The notes below the pieces were generated by a model, which was given only the letters and a program-made list of their open reading frames with translations, had not been told where the DNA came from and did not search any database. 64,000 nt of DNA from Chitinophagales bacterium (GTDB lineage: Bacteria > Bacteroidota > Bacteroidia > Chitinophagales > Saprospiraceae), in assembly GCA_013298955.1 (NCBI GenBank), contig JAAFJT010000012.1, positions 1 through 64,000 of the forward strand, read 5' to 3'. A program made the translations under genes and the position numbers. Position 1 is the first letter of the stretch. The number at the start of each line of letters is the position of its first letter. Below, piece by piece: positions 17,741 to 60,369 of the stretch.

Positions 17741-17833
17741 ATTGAATTACGAAAAATAATTGCGGTATTTGAAAAAGACTTGCCGCACGTTCTGCTCGAA
17801 TATTGAATTTCAATTTAAAACGAATTAGTTGAA

Positions 17834-17869
17834 AAAAGTGCGGCAAGTTTCAACTTACCGCACTTTTTG
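17834..17869 (+). terminator. Rho-independent terminator, GTGCGGCAAGTT family
   Basis: A stem of about 15 bp (AAAGTGCGGCAAGTT and its mirror, one mismatch) followed by TTTTTG. It lies between the convergent rhodanese and SNF2-DprA genes. An extra inverted copy of the left arm (17779-17789) could form an alternative pairing. The same hairpin, perfect, is at 45293-45328. Confidence 0.75.
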
Positions 17870-17912: not shown

Positions 17913-20900
17913 TTATATTTTCGCATATCGCCTACCCGGTAAGGCTCGAATCAACCCATTTAACTCCAAAGTCAACAGTAAACCTGCCAATTGTGAATGC
18001 GTTACGCCTGTTTCATTCATAATTTGGTCATTAGAAAGGGATTCATTGGATTGCAATAAATTGATAATGTGTTGTTCGGGTGCGGTCAAATGGGAGGTGA
18101 AAAGAGGCGGTTGAATCCCTTTTTTAGGTGATTTTGCGGTCGAAATGCCTTCTATTTTGTCTTTTTCGGCAATTTCTTCCCACCCCATGATGTAACCGAC
18201 ATCCGCCGCCGACTCTAAAATACTGGCTTTATGCGTTTTAATGAGGTGGTTGCAACCTGCCGAAAAAGGGTCTCCAACCCGTCCCGGAACCGCAAAAACT
18301 TCTTTATGATAATCATTCGCATATAAAGCACTTATCATAGAACCGCCTTTTCGCGCACTTTCAATGACAATCAACGCATCACACAAACTGGCAATAATGC
18401 GATTGCGCATCGGGAAATGTTCGCGTTCTGGGTCTTGGTCGGACGGAAATTCGGTCAAGAGACCGCCCATTTCGAGCATCTCTTGGGTAAATTTGGCATG
18501 TTCTCGCGGGTAAATGCGTTGTAAACCATTGCCCATCACACCGACGGTTGGCAAACCAATCGTTACGGCTTGTTGATGTGCCGTAATATCAATACCATGT
18601 GCCAATCCACTGATAATCAATGGATTATACTTTTTTAAACCTGTTACGATGTTTTTACAAATCTCAACACCGCGTTGTGTAGGAGCGCGTGTGCCGACAA
18701 TAGCGACGATTCGTCCTGCATTCAAATCCATATTGCCTTGCCCATACAAGATGAATGGCGCGTCCCGCACTTGTTTCAATCGTTCAGGATAATCCACCTC
18801 ATCAAAAAAACAAACTTTTATATTATTTTTTTGAATAAATGCCAATTCTTTATTTGCCCAATCCATGACTTGAATCAAATCATGTGCTAAAGCGCGTTTT
18901 TTATCCTGTAATTCCAAAATTTTCTCCTCAATCGTATTTTTACAAATCATTCGATACGCAAAAACAGGTCGTTCCTGCCCAATCCGATGCGCGCGGTCAA
19001 TCGCTTGCGACTCCACCGCAGGATTCCACCAAGGATCCACGATATAAACATAATCCGCCGCCGTCAGATTTAAACCCACTCCGCCCGCTTTCAAACTCAT
19101 CAAAAACACCCGACAAGATTCATTTTCTTGAAAACGATTCACCCGTTCCATGCGGTCATGGGTTTTCCCATCTAAATATTCATATGGAATGTGCAATTTG
19201 GTCAATTCTTTTTGAATTAAATTCAACATTTCCAAAAATTGCGAAAAAACTAAGATTTTATGCCTCCCCGAATCTTCACTAATGCGCGGAATCAACTCGG
19301 CTAATTTCACCGAACTCTGCCCATAATCTTTCGGTTCGTTCAAAATCGCGGGCGAATCGCAGATTTGACGCAGTTTCATCAAACCTTCCAAAATGTACAT
19401 CGCCGCATTTTGCATGCCGTCCGAATCAATTCGGTTCATAATCGCATCCCGATATTTGTCGCGGAAGGAGTCATACACGGTTCGTTGCGCAGGATCCATC
19501 TCGCAATAAATCACGGATTCCGATTTTGGAGGCAATTCTTTGGCAACTTCCTCCTTCGTCCGCCGCAAAATGAAGGGATAAACGAGCTTTTTCAATTGTT
19601 CGGTGGTTGCAACATCCTTATCGCGGTCGATTCGGTGCGCAAATTCGCGTTTGAAATACTCCATATTACCCAACATGCCCGGATTTAAAAAATCCATTTG
19701 CGAATACAAATCAAACGTATTGTTTTCAATCGGCGTACCCGTCAAGGCAAAACGATTGTCGGATTTTAATAATTTGACCGCCTTGCTCATCAACGCATCA
19801 GGATTTTTAATCGCTTGCGATTCGTCCAACACAATATAATTAAATTGAATCGCCGACAACCGTTCAATATCCGAACGAACCGCCCCATAAGTGCTGATAA
19901 TCAAGTTTTTACCTTTAAAATCCTCCAATAATTTGGCGCGTTGCTGCCCATAATACACCAAAATAGTCAACGACGGCGCAAATTTCGCACATTCCGCTTG
20001 CCAATTGAAAACCAATGATTTCGGTACAATCACCAAATTTTGACGGTCGGGTTTGGTTTCTGCCTGTTTGACGAGAAAGGCAATCGCTTGTAAGGTTTTG
20101 CCGAGTCCCATGTCGTCCGCCAAGATGCCGCCCCATTTAAATTCTTCCAAAAAATTCAACCAATTGTAACCCGATTGTTGATAGGAACGCAATTGCGCGG
20201 TGATGCCTTGCGGCAACGGTTTATCGGCAATGGATTGGAAATTTTTTAATAATTGCTTTTTTTCATATAATTTGAATAACGCTTCATTATCATCCATTTC
20301 CGCGTATAAATCCTCCACTAAGGAGAATTGAAAATGCGAAAATTTCAATTTTTCGCCTTTGACCGTCCCCAATTTGACCGCCGTGGCGTATTTTTCCAAC
20401 CATTCTTGAGGCAAAATCCCCAAAGTCCCATCACTTAATTTGATATAATGTTGTTTATTCAACAAGGCTTTCCGCACCTCTTTCAAACTCACGATTTCGC
20501 TGCCAAAACTCACGCTCATTTCCAAATCAAACCAATCAATCCCCGAAGCGGCTTTAATCGTCATTTTAGCCCGATTCGGATTATATTTGATTTTGGTCAA
20601 TTGTGCAAAACCAAAAATTTCGATATTTTGCGCTTTGATTTGTTCAAAAGCGGTAAAAAACCATTCATTTTCAAAGAGTTCATTGACATTGAGTCGGAAA
20701 TACGATGGATTTGCCTCACTTTGTTCTGCAAATTTTGGATGTAAATTCTCAAAAAAAGCTCGAATTTGATTCTCTTTTTCTTCGGAACGATAGACGATTT
20801 CAAACGCCCCATCATTTTCAAAAACCAATTGTCGCAACGTGCTATCATATTCCAATTCCTTGATTTCGCCGCCCGATTCATAGGTGAAAATCGGGGTGAA

Positions 20901-22679
20901 AATCAATTCATCCATATCATTTTCCTTATCTGTTGCTTCCGTCAAGTACAAATTGCAAGACAAAATCGCCGTTCCTTCATTCAAATCCACAGGCATATCA
21001 AACTGAATGTTGTGCATATCCATCAAAGGCAACATAATTTGGGTCAAAAAAGTCGCCAAATCCCGTTTCCGAATCCGCAATCGAGTCGTATTTGCAAACA
21101 TCGTGTGCAAGGTACGCACCGAACTTTCAGACATAAATAGCAATAATTGCAATTGTGGCTCGTAATACAGCCAACTTTGCCGAATCCGCGAAGGCACATA
21201 ATCCAATAACAATTCGCCTGTTCGGATTCTGGGTTCTAAAATGCAGTAACCATCTTGTTCAAATAATCGAAATTCTAAATGCGAAGGTGCGCCAACAACC
21301 GTTACCAATTGTAAATCATTGAGTTTCAACGCGCCCGTGGATGGCATATTTGCCAAATACACTTTTTTATGAATTAACAATTGGAAAATATCTTGCAAAC
21401 AGCGTCCTGCTTTGGCTTCAAAAAGATTGCCGCCTTCTGCGGTCAAATCGTTGAAAGCAGGGTGATGAACTATCGCACTTGGCGGATTGCTGTGTCCAAT
21501 GTAATACTTTCGGACAAAACTCGAACCCATTTCCGCTTCTTGAAAGTATTGCAAGCGTTTAAACAATTTACTATCCACCTCATCCAACATTGCCGCATCC
21601 GTCACGCTGAAAGTGGTGTAACGCAAATCGCTCAAAAACTCATTCAACCGACCTGCCAATTTGTCTTTGCGCCACAACGCTCGCACAGGTCGAATTGCCG
21701 TTTCAAACAAAGGTCGTTTCAACGGTTTGGGTGCAAACGGAGTGAGATTAGTAGCCCCCGTTTCCATTGAACTGATTGGAAACCAACGAATTACATAAAC
21801 TAAAATCGGCACTTCTCGTTCCTCCGCCAGAGGCTCTATCGTGCGAACTTCTCGCGTACGCGGCATGGCAGCGAGTTGCTTCACTTGGGCGCGCAAATCG
21901 GGTAAGTTCGATGATTTCAATATTTTATGGATGGAAGGATCATGGACTATCAACTGCAAATCGCCTGCTTCCAATTTGAATTTAAACAAATTTTGAACCC
22001 GCACATCATTGACATCATACCCATAATCTTCCAAAAGCGCGTTTTTTTCCTCCGTTAAATCCCGTATTTGTTCAAAGGGACGTTCCCCATATTGCTGTGC
22101 GAAATACAAAAAACCTTGAATTTTATGAGAACACAACCGCGAAAGCGTTTCCAAACAAGCACAAGAAGTCAAAATAGACGCTCCTTTTCGTTGAAACGTC
22201 ACTTTATAATGCGTCGCTTTATAGCTAACCGATTGATTTTCAAGGTTTATCTCCGCTTCGGGAGCTGGTTTTTGATTTGCAAAAGTAGAACCTTCTGAAT
22301 AAACCTGCAAGGTACTCAGTCGTTGCAAAAAAGCGGTCGTAATCGGTTCGTTTGGAATCGAGACCGATGACGCATCAAATTTGGGGACATGAAACGAGTC
22401 ATACAACTTAAGCCCCGCCGCCACAATGTGTTCACACATGCCCGCACTGTTCCGATACCCACAGTTGCATTGTGCATAAATCGTCGGTTTGTCATAATCG
22501 TGTATTGTGACGCGCTGCGTAACAGGTTGATACCCATTCGGGAGCGTGTACGTTACTTTTCCCGTTTTGCTGTCCATGCGCTGCTGCTGAATGGCAAAAC
22601 TTTTAGCACTATACAGGTTTTTACCCGCTTGATAATCGGGCGACCTTTCTATAAATCGCATTAAATAATCTTCTGTCAT
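17913..22679 (-). CDS. SWIM/SNF2 helicase fused in frame to DprA core
   Basis: 1588-residue cytoplasmic protein made of two normally separate genes. Residues ~65-190 hold two SWIM-type zinc motifs (C71xC73...C82xH84 and C173xC175...C183xH185). An SNF2 motor follows: Walker A in GGILADDMGLGKT (~850), DESQ box (~944), LTGTPIENN, ILVFSQF (~1137), and the motif VI region QAIDRAHRIGQ (~1225). After EEKILELQDKKRALAHDLIQ the chain runs directly into a DprA core: FFDEVDYPERL, VAIVGTRAPTQRG (~1325), SGLAHGID, RNRIIASLCDALIVIES, ARKGGS, and a C-terminal winged helix (~1520-1588) ending ALPGRRYAKI. The DprA helical N-domain (about 80 residues) and the usual SNF2 tail are missing at the junction. DprA loads RecA on incoming single strands; SNF2/SWIM proteins remodel protein-DNA complexes. 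A real fusion or a deletion (biological or assembly) could explain it. Confidence 0.88.
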   Translation of the reverse strand: MTEDYLMRFIERSPDYQAGKNLYSAKSFAIQQQRMDSKTGKVTYTLPNGYQPVTQRVTIHDYDKPTIYAQCNCGYRNSAGMCEHIVAAGLKLYDSFHVPKFDASSVSIPNEPITTAFLQRLSTLQVYSEGSTFANQKPAPEAEINLENQSVSYKATHYKVTFQRKGASILTSCACLETLSRLCSHKIQGFLYFAQQYGERPFEQIRDLTEEKNALLEDYGYDVNDVRVQNLFKFKLEAGDLQLIVHDPSIHKILKSSNLPDLRAQVKQLAAMPRTREVRTIEPLAEEREVPILVYVIRWFPISSMETGATNLTPFAPKPLKRPLFETAIRPVRALWRKDKLAGRLNEFLSDLRYTTFSVTDAAMLDEVDSKLFKRLQYFQEAEMGSSFVRKYYIGHSNPPSAIVHHPAFNDLTAEGGNLFEAKAGRCLQDIFQLLIHKKVYLANMPSTGALKLNDLQLVTVVGAPSHLEFRLFEQDGYCILEPRIRTGELLLDYVPSRIRQSWLYYEPQLQLLLFMSESSVRTLHTMFANTTRLRIRKRDLATFLTQIMLPLMDMHNIQFDMPVDLNEGTAILSCNLYLTEATDKENDMDELIFTPIFTYESGGEIKELEYDSTLRQLVFENDGAFEIVYRSEEKENQIRAFFENLHPKFAEQSEANPSYFRLNVNELFENEWFFTAFEQIKAQNIEIFGFAQLTKIKYNPNRAKMTIKAASGIDWFDLEMSVSFGSEIVSLKEVRKALLNKQHYIKLSDGTLGILPQEWLEKYATAVKLGTVKGEKLKFSHFQFSLVEDLYAEMDDNEALFKLYEKKQLLKNFQSIADKPLPQGITAQLRSYQQSGYNWLNFLEEFKWGGILADDMGLGKTLQAIAFLVKQAETKPDRQNLVIVPKSLVFNWQAECAKFAPSLTILVYYGQQRAKLLEDFKGKNLIISTYGAVRSDIERLSAIQFNYIVLDESQAIKNPDALMSKAVKLLKSDNRFALTGTPIENNTFDLYSQMDFLNPGMLGNMEYFKREFAHRIDRDKDVATTEQLKKLVYPFILRRTKEEVAKELPPKSESVIYCEMDPAQRTVYDSFRDKYRDAIMNRIDSDGMQNAAMYILEGLMKLRQICDSPAILNEPKDYGQSSVKLAELIPRISEDSGRHKILVFSQFLEMLNLIQKELTKLHIPYEYLDGKTHDRMERVNRFQENESCRVFLMSLKAGGVGLNLTAADYVYIVDPWWNPAVESQAIDRAHRIGQERPVFAYRMICKNTIEEKILELQDKKRALAHDLIQVMDWANKELAFIQKNNIKVCFFDEVDYPERLKQVRDAPFILYGQGNMDLNAGRIVAIVGTRAPTQRGVEICKNIVTGLKKYNPLIISGLAHGIDITAHQQAVTIGLPTVGVMGNGLQRIYPREHAKFTQEMLEMGGLLTEFPSDQDPEREHFPMRNRIIASLCDALIVIESARKGGSMISALYANDYHKEVFAVPGRVGDPFSAGCNHLIKTHKASILESAADVGYIMGWEEIAEKDKIEGISTAKSPKKGIQPPLFTSHLTAPEQHIINLLQSNESLSNDQIMNETGVTHSQLAGLLLTLELNGLIRALPGRRYAKI

Positions 22680-22835: not shown

Positions 22836-22965
22836 TAAGTAGTTAAATTTAAAGAACCGATAACAACGTTTGGAGGGTTTCAAACCCTCCAAACGTTATA
22901 CTACCTTGAAAATCAACATTTTAGTTGATATAACTTTTTGTCGATTCTTTCATTCCAACTACTTA
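22836..22965. repeat. MITE-like modular element, GTTTGGAGGG core (copy A)
   Basis: The most complete copy. Terminal arms of about 25 bp lie at 22836-22860 (TAAGTAGTTAAATTTAAAG then AACCGA) and 22941-22965 (TCGATTCTTTCATTCC then AACTACTTA). Between them is a perfect hairpin at 22865-22897 (AACGTTTGGAGGG, mirrored), then a spacer CTACCTTGAAAATCAAC. Related copies: 24669-24747, 27463-27552, 57965-58093, and 53411-53541 with a different core. No open reading frame of useful size, so any mobility would be in trans. Confidence 0.75.
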
Positions 22966-22969
22966 ATAG

Positions 22970-23069
22970 AAACGCAGATGACGCGGATGGGGCGGATGAG
23001 CGCGGATTTTGAAGCTATACTTTGCGTCGGGTGGTTTTGCGATACAATGGGAACGCGGATAACGCGGAT
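22970..23069. repeat. GCGGAT-family half elements (direct orientation)
   Basis: Two stretches of tandem 9-mers ending in GCGGAT or GCAGAT (22970-23009; 23041-23069, preceded by GATACAATGGGAACGCGGAT). Unlike the copies at 49530 and 60174, both arms face the same way, so no full hairpin forms. It ends next to the stop of dtd. Confidence 0.65.
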
Positions 23070-24668: not shown

Positions 24669-24747
24669 CAAGTAATTGAATTTTAATATAGAACAACGTT
24701 TGGAGGGTTTCAAACCCTCCAAACGTTATACTTGCTCTTCAACTACG
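24669..24747. repeat. Modular element, GTTTGGAGGG core (copy B)
   Basis: A perfect hairpin core at 24695-24727, identical to copy A. The left arm (24669-24693, CAAGTAATTGAATTTT...) and right arm (around 24731-24747, CTTCAACTACG) are decayed versions of the terminal arms. The right arm reaches the stop codon of yidD (24743), so the end of the yidD coding sequence abuts the element. Confidence 0.65.
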
Positions 24748-27462: not shown

Positions 27463-27552
27463 AACGTTTGGAGGGTTTCAAACCCTCCAAACGTTATACT
27501 ACCTTGATTTAGCAGGTATAAATTTGATTCGATTCTTTAAGTTCTACGACCT
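27463..27552. repeat. Modular element, GTTTGGAGGG core (copy C)
   Basis: The hairpin core 27463-27495 is identical to copies A and B, followed by CTACCTTGATTT and a decayed right arm (27528-27552, TTCGATTCTTTAAGTTC...). The arm runs up to the stop codon of the pseudouridine synthase. The left arm is not recognisable. Confidence 0.65.
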
Positions 27553-32553: not shown

Positions 32554-35016
32554 TTAAAAGCGTTCAAACGAATAGCCTTTTTCTTTCAATTCTTGTATCA
32601 ATCGCTCTAATCGAACATACATTTTATCCGTGCGCAAAGGGTCACTTCCGATGTGCATTAATAGGATGAAACCATTCAATCCCTTTGTATTACGTATTTC
32701 ATAATCCATAATACTTCTATAAATGGTTTTAGAAGCCATATAATTTTTATCTTTCGGAGTCGTGTAATCGGCATTCGAGCGCGTTCCCGATGTATAATTG
32801 ACTAATTCCAGACCCGCTTCTTGACTCCATCCTACAATTTCCGAATTATACCATTCAAAGGGCGGTAAAAAATATTTTGCTTGCTCTTTGGAAATACCCA
32901 ATTTGGACATTTCGATAAAATTTTGTTTTAAATCATGCCTAAAATCGATTTTAGAAACCAATAAACTATCCCTTTTTTTCCAATCACAATACAATAAATG
33001 TTTATCGGAATGCGCTCCCAAATAATGTCCATCGGCTTTTAAATCTTTGACCAAATCGGGAAAAGTGCGATAAAAATCACCAGTCAAGAAAAAAGAGGCT
33101 TTTACATTATTTTTTTTTAAAATATTTGTAATGATTTGCCCGCCATCTGCAAATTCATGTCCTGTGAAAACCAATTGAATTTTCATTCGCGCCGTATCTT
33201 TTCGGACGATTGCGCCATATTTATCTCGAATTTTATTGGAAAGGACTGGTTTTGCTACTCCTTTTTGTTGCAATTGAGCCAAATAATAAGTCAAACTCGC
33301 GGTACCATCCATTGTGGGTTCATTGGTAGCATAATCGCCATAATCGTCATGATACACGACTTCGGGCGATTGAAATGCTTCAAATTCATCGGCTTGATGT
33401 AACTTAATGCCAATCAATCGATTATAAATACTACCATAAACGGGACCATCGACCAAACCGCCCTTAATATTATAATTTTTCAAATGGGTAAAGGCTGAAT
33501 GAGGGTCTTTCGGGGCAACACCCTCTTCGGGCAGACCGACTATCATACTCGTTCCCCAAGGATTGCAACCAAACAGCCAATCCCGCCAAGCGGCTTCCAA
33601 TTCATCATATGGAGGCGGTGCGATTTTAAGTTGTTTGCAAAATCTTATTTGGGTCAATCCAGCCGATACCAAATTATTAGAACACCAGATGAATGGAAAT
33701 CCATTTAAAAAAGGATTATCCTGTCCGCGTTTCGCAATTAAATCAACGCCTTTTAAAATATTTTGTTTAAATAAAACGCTATCTTGGCTATTTGCCAAAT
33801 AAAAATTGCCCAATTGAACAAATGGATACCATTGATAATGTCGCGCCGTATCCGCACCCATCCAAGGCGTGATAGGTTCTTTTTTACCAAAATCACTCGC
33901 TTCCTGCATTTTTGCCCCATCAGGCGCGACTGCCGCCGCTAATGTCATGTCATCCGTCCAATTGTCCTCTTCATAAAAATAGGGCGCACGATATGGAGCC
34001 GTTTGGCAAACGCCCGGATACATTTGCCCATATTGATACGCTGCATTTGCTTTAACTTTAAGGCTATCAGCAAATTGTGGATAATATTTTTTTAATATAC
34101 GATTACCTAACCAAAAGGCAGCAGCGAATTTACCTGCTATGGAAGCAACCCCGGTGGTTCGATTTTTATAATTTTTCAAACCTTGTGGTTTGCCCGTGAC
34201 GCGATACGCAGGGCGCATCAAACCTTTATTATTTGAATACGTAATCGTATCTAAATGAGGCAGTCGCACCATTTGATGGTCTCTATCATCTGCGATTTGA
34301 TGATACATTTCGGTTGGATTAGGGTTCATCCGCATCAACCAATCTAACCCCCATTTCGCTTCGTCCAAAATATCTGGAATTTGATTGGGTTTGGGATTGC
34401 CTGCGGCATCATAGGCATCTTGAAAAGCGGCTGAATTTTGTTCATAAGCAAATAATAATTGTGTAACTGCGTTAGCAGACGTAGTTACATATTGCAAATA
34501 ATCAGATGCGTCATGCCAACCACCCCAAACCGCCACTTGTGTCCCATCCCGCAAAGGGTCTTCATTGCCCACTGCAAAACAGCCTTCTTTATGGCAATTT
34601 GCTTTCAAAAAAGGATTATTGCCACAACGTTGTTGCCGCATGTATTGCAATAAAAAATCAGCTGTACCATTCCAAATGGTATCATGGATGCGAAAAATAG
34701 GAGAACGGGTTTTGCCCACCCGAACAAAATACTGTCCCGTTTGATGCCATTCAGAGAAATCAAGCCGCGCTCCTGCCTTGAAAGCAGCATATTCGGGATA
34801 GATTTTGACCTTTTTGCCTTCAAAAACAGGCAATTCGGTCAATGCATCACAGAGTTCAAATTTTTTAACATTATCTTTATTCACACTATCTTTCGTTAGC
34901 CAAACGGCAACTTTTATCGCATCAGTGGTATAACCTATTTGATTAATGCGAATCCACGATTGAGCCATCAAGAGGGATGGAGTTAAGGTGCAAAAAAAAA
35001 TCAACAAACGATTCAT
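32554..35016 (-). CDS. GH9 cellulase-like protein fused to polysaccharide-deacetylase-like domain
   Basis: 820-residue exported protein (signal peptide MNRLLIFFCTLTPSLLMA). Residues ~20-110 form the cellulase N-terminal Ig-like domain (IRINQIGYTTDAIKVAVW). The GH9 catalytic domain covers ~115-600: GGWHDASDYLQY (nucleophile/base Asp region), DPHSAFTH (His), and TNEPTMDGTASLTYYLA (acid Glu). The C-terminal ~210 residues are a NodB-like deacetylase fold with HSDKHLLYCDW (metal His pair) and FLPPFEW. The first NodB motif, normally TFDD, reads FTGHE, so metal binding is altered. Predicted role: hydrolysis of beta-glucans outside the cytoplasm, with the second domain acting on acylated sugars or only binding them (inference). 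Confidence 0.9.
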   Translation of the reverse strand: MNRLLIFFCTLTPSLLMAQSWIRINQIGYTTDAIKVAVWLTKDSVNKDNVKKFELCDALTELPVFEGKKVKIYPEYAAFKAGARLDFSEWHQTGQYFVRVGKTRSPIFRIHDTIWNGTADFLLQYMRQQRCGNNPFLKANCHKEGCFAVGNEDPLRDGTQVAVWGGWHDASDYLQYVTTSANAVTQLLFAYEQNSAAFQDAYDAAGNPKPNQIPDILDEAKWGLDWLMRMNPNPTEMYHQIADDRDHQMVRLPHLDTITYSNNKGLMRPAYRVTGKPQGLKNYKNRTTGVASIAGKFAAAFWLGNRILKKYYPQFADSLKVKANAAYQYGQMYPGVCQTAPYRAPYFYEEDNWTDDMTLAAAVAPDGAKMQEASDFGKKEPITPWMGADTARHYQWYPFVQLGNFYLANSQDSVLFKQNILKGVDLIAKRGQDNPFLNGFPFIWCSNNLVSAGLTQIRFCKQLKIAPPPYDELEAAWRDWLFGCNPWGTSMIVGLPEEGVAPKDPHSAFTHLKNYNIKGGLVDGPVYGSIYNRLIGIKLHQADEFEAFQSPEVVYHDDYGDYATNEPTMDGTASLTYYLAQLQQKGVAKPVLSNKIRDKYGAIVRKDTARMKIQLVFTGHEFADGGQIITNILKKNNVKASFFLTGDFYRTFPDLVKDLKADGHYLGAHSDKHLLYCDWKKRDSLLVSKIDFRHDLKQNFIEMSKLGISKEQAKYFLPPFEWYNSEIVGWSQEAGLELVNYTSGTRSNADYTTPKDKNYMASKTIYRSIMDYEIRNTKGLNGFILLMHIGSDPLRTDKMYVRLERLIQELKEKGYSFERF

Positions 35017-49529: not shown

Positions 49530-49645
49530 TGTGATACAATTGGAACGCGGATGACGCGGATTGGGCAGATTTTCGCGGATTTTTTATTTTTATAAAAATA
49601 AAAAAATCCGCGAAAATCTGCCCAATCCGCGTCATCCGCGTTCCA
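49530..49645. repeat. GCGGAT-family inverted repeat (hairpin)
   Basis: The left arm (49535-49589: GATACAATTGGAACGCGGAT then tandem 9-mers) and the right arm (49597-49652) are mirror images with an AT centre. It sits just after the radA stop and reads as a terminator-like stem with tandem 9-mer arms. Confidence 0.85.
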
Positions 49646-49763
49646 ATTGTACCCAACTTTTTCCAAAGCGAATTATAATTTTTATAAAAATAAAAAAATC
49701 CGCGAAAATCTGCCCAATCCGCGTCATCCGCGTTCCAATTGTACCCAACTTTTTCCAAAGCGA
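49591..49763. repeat. 92-bp direct duplication of the right arm
   Basis: The right arm of the GCGGAT element plus its downstream flank (ending CCAAAGCGA at 49663-49671) is repeated at an offset of 92 bp (ending at 49755-49763). The flank (CCCAACTTTTTCCAAAGCGA) has been copied together with the arm, so the duplication involved chromosomal DNA and not only the element. The second copy ends 6 bp from the CHAT gene stop. Confidence 0.8.
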
Positions 49764-57906: not shown

Positions 57907-58122
57907 AGGAGGGAATTTTAGGAATTAAGGAAGGATTTACTTGATTTTTTTGATAAAAATCAAGTAAGTAGCTAATGTTAAATAATCAACAACAACGTTT
58001 GGAGGGTTTGAACCCTCTAAACGTTATACACCCTTGAAAATCAACCTTTTAGCGCGTATTGTTTTTTGTCGATTCTTTAAATTCAACTACTTAAATCCTT
58101 CCTTAATTCCTACAATTCCCTC
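57907..58122. repeat. Nested inverted repeats (9-mer arms around modular element copy D)
   Basis: The outer arms 57907-57938 (GGAGGGAATTTTAGG, AATTAAGGAAGGATT) and 58092-58122 are mirror images. Inside lie a short stem (ACTTGATTTTTTTGATAAAA... at 57938-57965) and a modular element (57965-58093) with a slightly decayed GTTTGGAGGG core at 57994-58025 and right arm TCGATTCTTTAAATTC at 58069. So one element inserted into, or grew within, another. Confidence 0.7.
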
Positions 58123-59939: not shown

Positions 59940-60369
59940 GGTTGAGTTCGATTTATAGTTAGAAATTTTAGGAATATCCGCATTCAGTGCTTGCGGCGTT
60001 TGACAAAATAAAATCGTGAGTATTGTAAGTCCAAAGGAAGTTGCCAAAAAAGGCGTTTCAAATGCTGAGTCTATCATGAATATTGGGGTATAAGTTTGGT
60101 TATCTAAAAGGGTTTGAATTAGGATTTGCAGGATTTTTGTAGGATTGATTTTTATATACTTTGCGCACGATAGTTTTTGGATACAATTGGAACACGGATG
60201 ACACGGATTGGGCGGATTTGCACGGATTTTTTTTAAATCATCCTCCAAAACCAAGCAAAGTCAAAAAAAAATCCGTGCAAATCCGCCCAATCCGTGTTAT
60301 CCGTGTTCCAATTGTATCCAAAAACCATCATAAGTGAAGTATAGAATCCCAAAAATCCTAATTCAAATC
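59940..60369. other. Nested repeat region between lipoprotein and barrel genes
   Basis: About 430 bp without a gene. The outer shell is a GAATTAGGAT-type inverted repeat (60112-60128 with 60350-60367). Inside it is a complete GCGGAT-family hairpin (60174-60324). Between 59940 and 60110 lies the AT-rich upstream region of the lipoprotein gene. Confidence 0.75.
60112..60367. repeat. GAATTAGGAT shell around a GCGGAT-family hairpin
   Basis: The shell arms contain GTTTGAATTAGGATTTG and CAAAAATCCTAATTCAAA. The inner arms (60174-60233, 60263-60324) are tandem 9-mers AACACGGAT, GACACGGAT, TGGGCGGAT, TTGCACGGAT and their mirror image, with a GATACAATTGG flank as in the copy at 49535. Confidence 0.8.

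Follow-up and report, generated by a model that had tools for sequence, protein, structure and literature searches.

Proteins of the DprA/Smf family (PF02481 + PF17782), among them those with structures from R. palustris (3MAJ), S. pneumoniae (3UQZ) and H. pylori (4LJK), have a Rossmann core and commonly, though not universally, a winged helix; the core is known for single-stranded DNA binding and for the dimer interface (PMC4489622, PMC9769556). A SAM-like N-domain is typical of the DprA of Bacteroidota; the H. pylori protein is naturally without it (PMC9769556). In Riemerella anatipestifer, a member of Bacteroidota, transformation was partially rescued both by SAM-less DprA (2.4x10^-8) and by SAM-RF (4.1x10^-6), rescue by the SAM-less DprA of H. 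pylori was likewise partial, and DNA binding requires arginine R123 in the Riemerella core (PMC6533540). A DprA-type Rossmann fold is also present in the DprA-like antitoxin ShosA (8ZVA, 9VZO). Bacterial SWIM/SNF2_assoc proteins (PF08455 + PF00176 + PF00271) have open frames of about 1230-1300 codons in the closest relatives of the genome studied here, and in relatives they end in a conserved C-terminal tail of about 20 aa (of the kind ..ESFIKSLTQDDIMALFS). SNF2 motors joined to other domains are described from the SWI2/SNF2 polyvalent proteins of phages and conjugative elements, where methylase, protease and ART domains are found within mobile elements (PMC5512222).

The locus described here brings the two families together in one frame. 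With DprA/Smf proteins it shares the Rossmann core and the winged helix, and, like the H. pylori protein, it has these two DprA domains only; in the place of the N-domain typical of Bacteroidota stands an SNF2 protein of about 1270 aa. With SWIM/SNF2_assoc proteins it shares architecture and motifs, but the C-terminal tail is gone and DprA comes next. The SNF2 motor is joined to another domain as in the polyvalent proteins, whereas its partner is DprA and its context is that of chromosomal housekeeping genes. The match to ShosA is weaker than that to the chromosomal DprAs 3UQZ and 3MAJ.

Layout and junction of the fused frame

The window analysed is a stretch of 64,000 nucleotides from a Chitinophagales bacterium. 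A single open frame of 1588 codons, with an ATG start and no internal stops, lies on its minus strand and encodes domains of both families, which bears out the in-frame SNF2-DprA fusion proposed in the first-pass annotation.

17913..22679, minus strand: whole frame, SWIM/SNF2 helicase-like protein plus DprA core (open frame and Pfam)
18876..22679, minus strand: SNF2 part, residues 1 to about 1268, without the tail of about 20 aa (Pfam, orthologue alignment)
17916..18863, minus strand: DprA part, residues about 1273-1588, with the last linker helix, Rossmann core and winged helix
Residues 428-819: SNF2_assoc (Pfam)
Residues 833-1111: SNF2-rel_dom (Pfam)
Residues 1130-1234: Helicase_C (Pfam)
Residues 1282-1487: DNA_processg_A, the DprA Rossmann core (Pfam, profile positions 2-210 of 212, E 8.7e-71)
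Residues 1529-1582: DprA_WH, winged helix (Pfam, E 3.1e-10)

The SNF2 part belongs with the SWIM/SNF2 helicase-like proteins: SNF2_assoc, SNF2-rel_dom and Helicase_C are present together with the ATPase motifs DDMGLGKT, DESQ, TGTPIEN and QAIDRAHRIGQ, and what is lacking is the tail, which does not define the family. A full SWIM/SNF2 motor had been claimed; the SNF2 motor is indeed complete by Pfam, while the two SWIM-like CxC...CxH motifs near the N-terminus (CNCGYRNSAGMCEH and CACLETLSRLCSH) were read by eye and have no Pfam SWIM match. The DprA part has the Rossmann core, the conserved residues and the winged helix of the DprA/Smf family and lacks the SAM-like N-domain, which is usual but not universal; since H. 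pylori DprA is also without it, its absence does not exclude membership.

The two parts meet at the following positions.

18861..18881, minus strand: junction DLIQV/MDW, residues 1267-1273 (alignments of relatives)
18864..18866, minus strand: Met1272, an in-frame internal ATG (sequence)

SNF2-like sequence gives way to DprA-like sequence at residues about 1270-1273 (window about 18861-18872), where SNF2-like ...KKRALAHDLI(QV) joins DprA-like (V)MDWANKELAFIQKNN; the string KKRALAHDLIQVMDWANKELAF lies at window 18902-18837. The fusion tracks the SNF2 orthologues up to KKRALAHDLIQV, and the next stretch, MDWANKELAFIQKNNIKV..YPERL, is DprA, its counterpart in the DprA of one relative (G001) being VLKWAEKELDFIVKNQVRV..YPRRL. 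Orthologous SNF2 proteins end ...KKAVAKDLINIEAGFIKSLDKEDVRDLFS followed by a stop, about 20 aa beyond the end of the SNF2 part, and this tail, conserved among relatives, is absent from the fusion. Absent as well is the helical SAM-like N-domain of about 60 residues that is present in all the relatives' DprAs aligned. Both deficits had been noticed at first reading, and comparison with relatives upholds them. As judged from the sequence, Met1272, situated at the join, could start a separate SAM-less DprA of 317 aa; a search for promoters in this region, the sequence ahead of Met1272 included, yielded no signal beyond chance expectation.

Conserved positions are largely kept in both halves. The SNF2 motor half keeps 148 of 150 conserved columns, and both departures are gaps at the missing tail. 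For the DprA half, columns shared by at least 90% of 25 DprAs were taken as conserved, and 72 of 76 are kept; its four changes (V-I, D-E, L-I, L-I) are conservative and no more numerous than in several intact relatives, and its branch length (0.94 vs 0.86-1.04 for some other relatives) is ordinary. The arginine of the GTR motif is kept in the core (VGTR) and is putatively equivalent to R123 of the Riemerella protein. An AlphaFold model was obtained with an alignment of DprA rows only, as DprA sequences were misplaced onto the SNF2 lobe in a mixed SNF2 and DprA alignment; the SNF2 lobe of the model has no alignment depth, is unreliable and was left uninterpreted. The modelled DprA core matches the folds of 3MAJ, 3UQZ and 4LJK. 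Residues 1247-1284 are predicted as a single continuous helix across the join; the mean pLDDT is about 90 or higher beyond residue ~1258. AlphaFold tends toward long helices for helix-prone sequence, and the modelled junction helix indicates compatibility of the two halves, not function.

Copy number and occurrence in relatives

The assembly to which the window belongs comprises 4.68 Mb in 204 contigs and is 97.95% complete and 0.48% contaminated. It holds one PF02481 match, which is the fusion itself; the check for an independent dprA elsewhere, suggested in the first-pass annotation, thus left the fusion as the sole copy. ComEC is present in the genome, so that a role of DprA in DNA uptake is possible.

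A junction-spanning query served to search 398 family genomes and 395 phylum genomes, and 299 genomes of the order were scanned for dprA; the three samples overlap. No SNF2-DprA fusion was found in any other genome of these samples, and recurrence in several species, by which a real fusion was to be recognised, did not materialise. A true fusion would rank near the top of such a search, and the only stop-free match spanning the join in the family and phylum queries was the window itself. Other matches stop shortly past the SNF2 end, begin at the DprA start or cross in-frame stops. Matches running past the SNF2 end in a few relatives (e.g. G039, G324, G505 and G514) contain in-frame stops and were set aside as read-through noise. 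A scan of the relatives' contigs for the fusion yielded separate genes only. In the order, the dprA frames among the matches listed (about half of 280) measure 362-486 codons, the window's excepted, and all of them are separate genes. In one genome (G036, listed as 100% complete, with its SNF2 gene at locus L008) the DprA query found no dprA, although the gene is present in nearly all relatives.

The nearest SNF2 relative is G135, whose SNF2 protein is sister to that of the fusion (support 100/99); its SNF2 gene, with the end complete, lies on contig C13 and its dprA on contig C107. Separate complete genes at this place in close relatives, together with a discordant assembly, had been named as a finding that would refute the fusion; G135 does have two separate genes, and as they lie on different contigs the assembly is neither proved nor refuted by them. 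Across 22 regions around the relatives' genes, neither adjacency of SNF2 and dprA nor a common neighbourhood was found.

Proposed origin and activity of the fusion

Our preferred account, and the most likely one, is that the frame is a real but lineage-specific deletion fusion, which probably retains a working DprA core. A deletion scar had already been put forward as an alternative to a coupled machine, and the sequence fits it in that both lost pieces meet at the same point; the event itself we infer. Two missing pieces that abut one point are most simply explained by one in-frame deletion spanning the gene boundary, and this is preferred over loss of a stop codon, which alone would have kept both ends. 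In an ancestor, a SWIM/SNF2 gene would first have come to precede dprA immediately and in the same orientation, an arrangement not seen in relatives. The deletion would then have taken away ~20 codons at the end of the SNF2 gene together with its stop, the spacer between the genes and ~60 codons at the start of dprA, with the frame kept by chance, and the final helix of the SNF2 motor is predicted to continue straight into the helix preceding the DprA Rossmann core. The fused protein, or the 317-aa product from Met1272, would be the only DprA of the cell, with activity possibly reduced; the SNF2 motor with all its motifs probably still acts on duplex DNA. By analogy, the known functions of the core and the partial rescue in Riemerella suggest that the DprA part is probably still active, perhaps weakly. 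Against the deletion fusion it counts that it rests on one assembly of one strain, and that an earlier rearrangement must be assumed, since SNF2 and dprA are never neighbours in the relatives examined. A join made by chance keeps the frame about one time in three, and the open frame by itself is therefore weak evidence of function. The probabilities attached to this and the following accounts are our own estimates and not computed values.

An assembly artefact is the foremost rival and is possible, though rather unlikely. Two complete genes would have been merged by the dropping of a few hundred boundary bases or by misjoining of two contigs during assembly or binning. The restriction of the fusion to its own genome among those searched, the division of the assembly into 204 contigs, the lack of linkage between SNF2 and dprA in relatives and the fact that an accidental in-frame join is not rare all speak in its favour. 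On the other side, the 201-bp junction stretch occurs once in the genome (its best matches elsewhere are weak and about 24 bp long) and is not a repeat; a collapse would need a match of assembler-word length between two unrelated coding sequences. A profile search for an orphan DprA N-domain in the same assembly found none, the best match (E 0.017) falling in the C-terminal helix-hairpin-helix region of a protein named UvrC-like by eye and the rest being noise. Taken from the sequence, the single-copy junction DNA and the missing orphan head lean against a repeat-driven misjoin. Codon use, GC and GC3 of both halves resemble those of neighbouring genes, composition being even across the join, and nine of ten neighbouring genes checked have ordinary, mostly near-full-length domain matches.

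It is improbable that the fusion is an expressed and selected machine, in which the SNF2 motor, an ATP-driven translocase on incoming or damaged duplex DNA, would strip proteins as the DprA core, rigidly attached to it, places RecA on the neighbouring single strand, coupling clearance and loading. A coupling of transformation to the removal of DNA-bound proteins had been suggested in the first-pass annotation, and the missing recurrence weighs against it. The conserved motifs kept in both halves, the join modelled as a helix and not as a floppy linker, and the presence of ComEC together with the fusion as only dprA are what such a machine would lead one to expect. However, conservation is equally expected from a young neutral fusion, the fusion does not recur in any genome searched, no conserved gene neighbourhood links the SNF2 and DprA families, and no paper describing a DprA-SNF2 fusion was found, as far as titles and abstracts tell.

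A damaging scar, with DprA non-functional or nearly so, competence being lost and maybe only the SNF2 part still used, is very improbable. In its favour, dprA frames of the order are at least 362 codons among the matches listed, long enough for the N-domain, and in Riemerella the yield of transformants with SAM-less DprA was lower by about two orders of magnitude than with SAM-RF (PMC6533540). Against it, the DprA core of the fusion shows neither decay nor an unusual branch length, although an intact-looking core would also be expected if the deletion were very recent.

If confirmed in reads, the deletion fusion would represent a natural replacement of the Bacteroidota DprA N-domain by a DNA motor and a natural test of how much DprA a cell needs. 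It would also connect the SWIM/SNF2 proteins, which are poorly understood, physically with the RecA-loading pathway. As one genome, it mainly illustrates that two unrelated genes can become one through a single deletion, and it is to be regarded as a curiosity and not as an established new machine.

Surroundings and repeats in the window

Upstream of the fusion gene lie genes for a D-Tyr-tRNA deacylase, a nucleotidyl transferase and an SRP54-type GTPase (FtsY-like). Downstream, a rhodanese gene on the opposite strand is convergent with it. No toxin gene was recognised among the neighbours checked. The following element separates the two convergent genes and is likely to serve as their shared terminator.

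17833..17868, no strand assigned: inverted repeat with 17-nt arms, 94% complementary, between the fusion and rhodanese genes

Two repeats are interspersed in the window. A 16-nt palindromic hairpin, AACGTTTGGAGGGTTT n AAACCCTCCAAACGTT, occurs in perfect or near-perfect form at 22865-22897, 24695-24727, 27463-27495 and 57994-58025; its half-sites have eight matches within the window against 0.08 expected, and it is likely to be an interspersed repeat family of this genome. The second, ATCCGCGTCATC(C/T)GCGTT, has six matches against 0.04 expected (22971-22988, 23052-23069, 49544-49561, 49625-49642, 49717-49734 and 60191-60208), and two of these lie close to the fusion gene on its upstream side. 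Elsewhere in the window, at 32554-35016 on the minus strand, one frame of 820 aa combines a glycosyl hydrolase family 9 domain with a C-terminal polysaccharide deacetylase domain.
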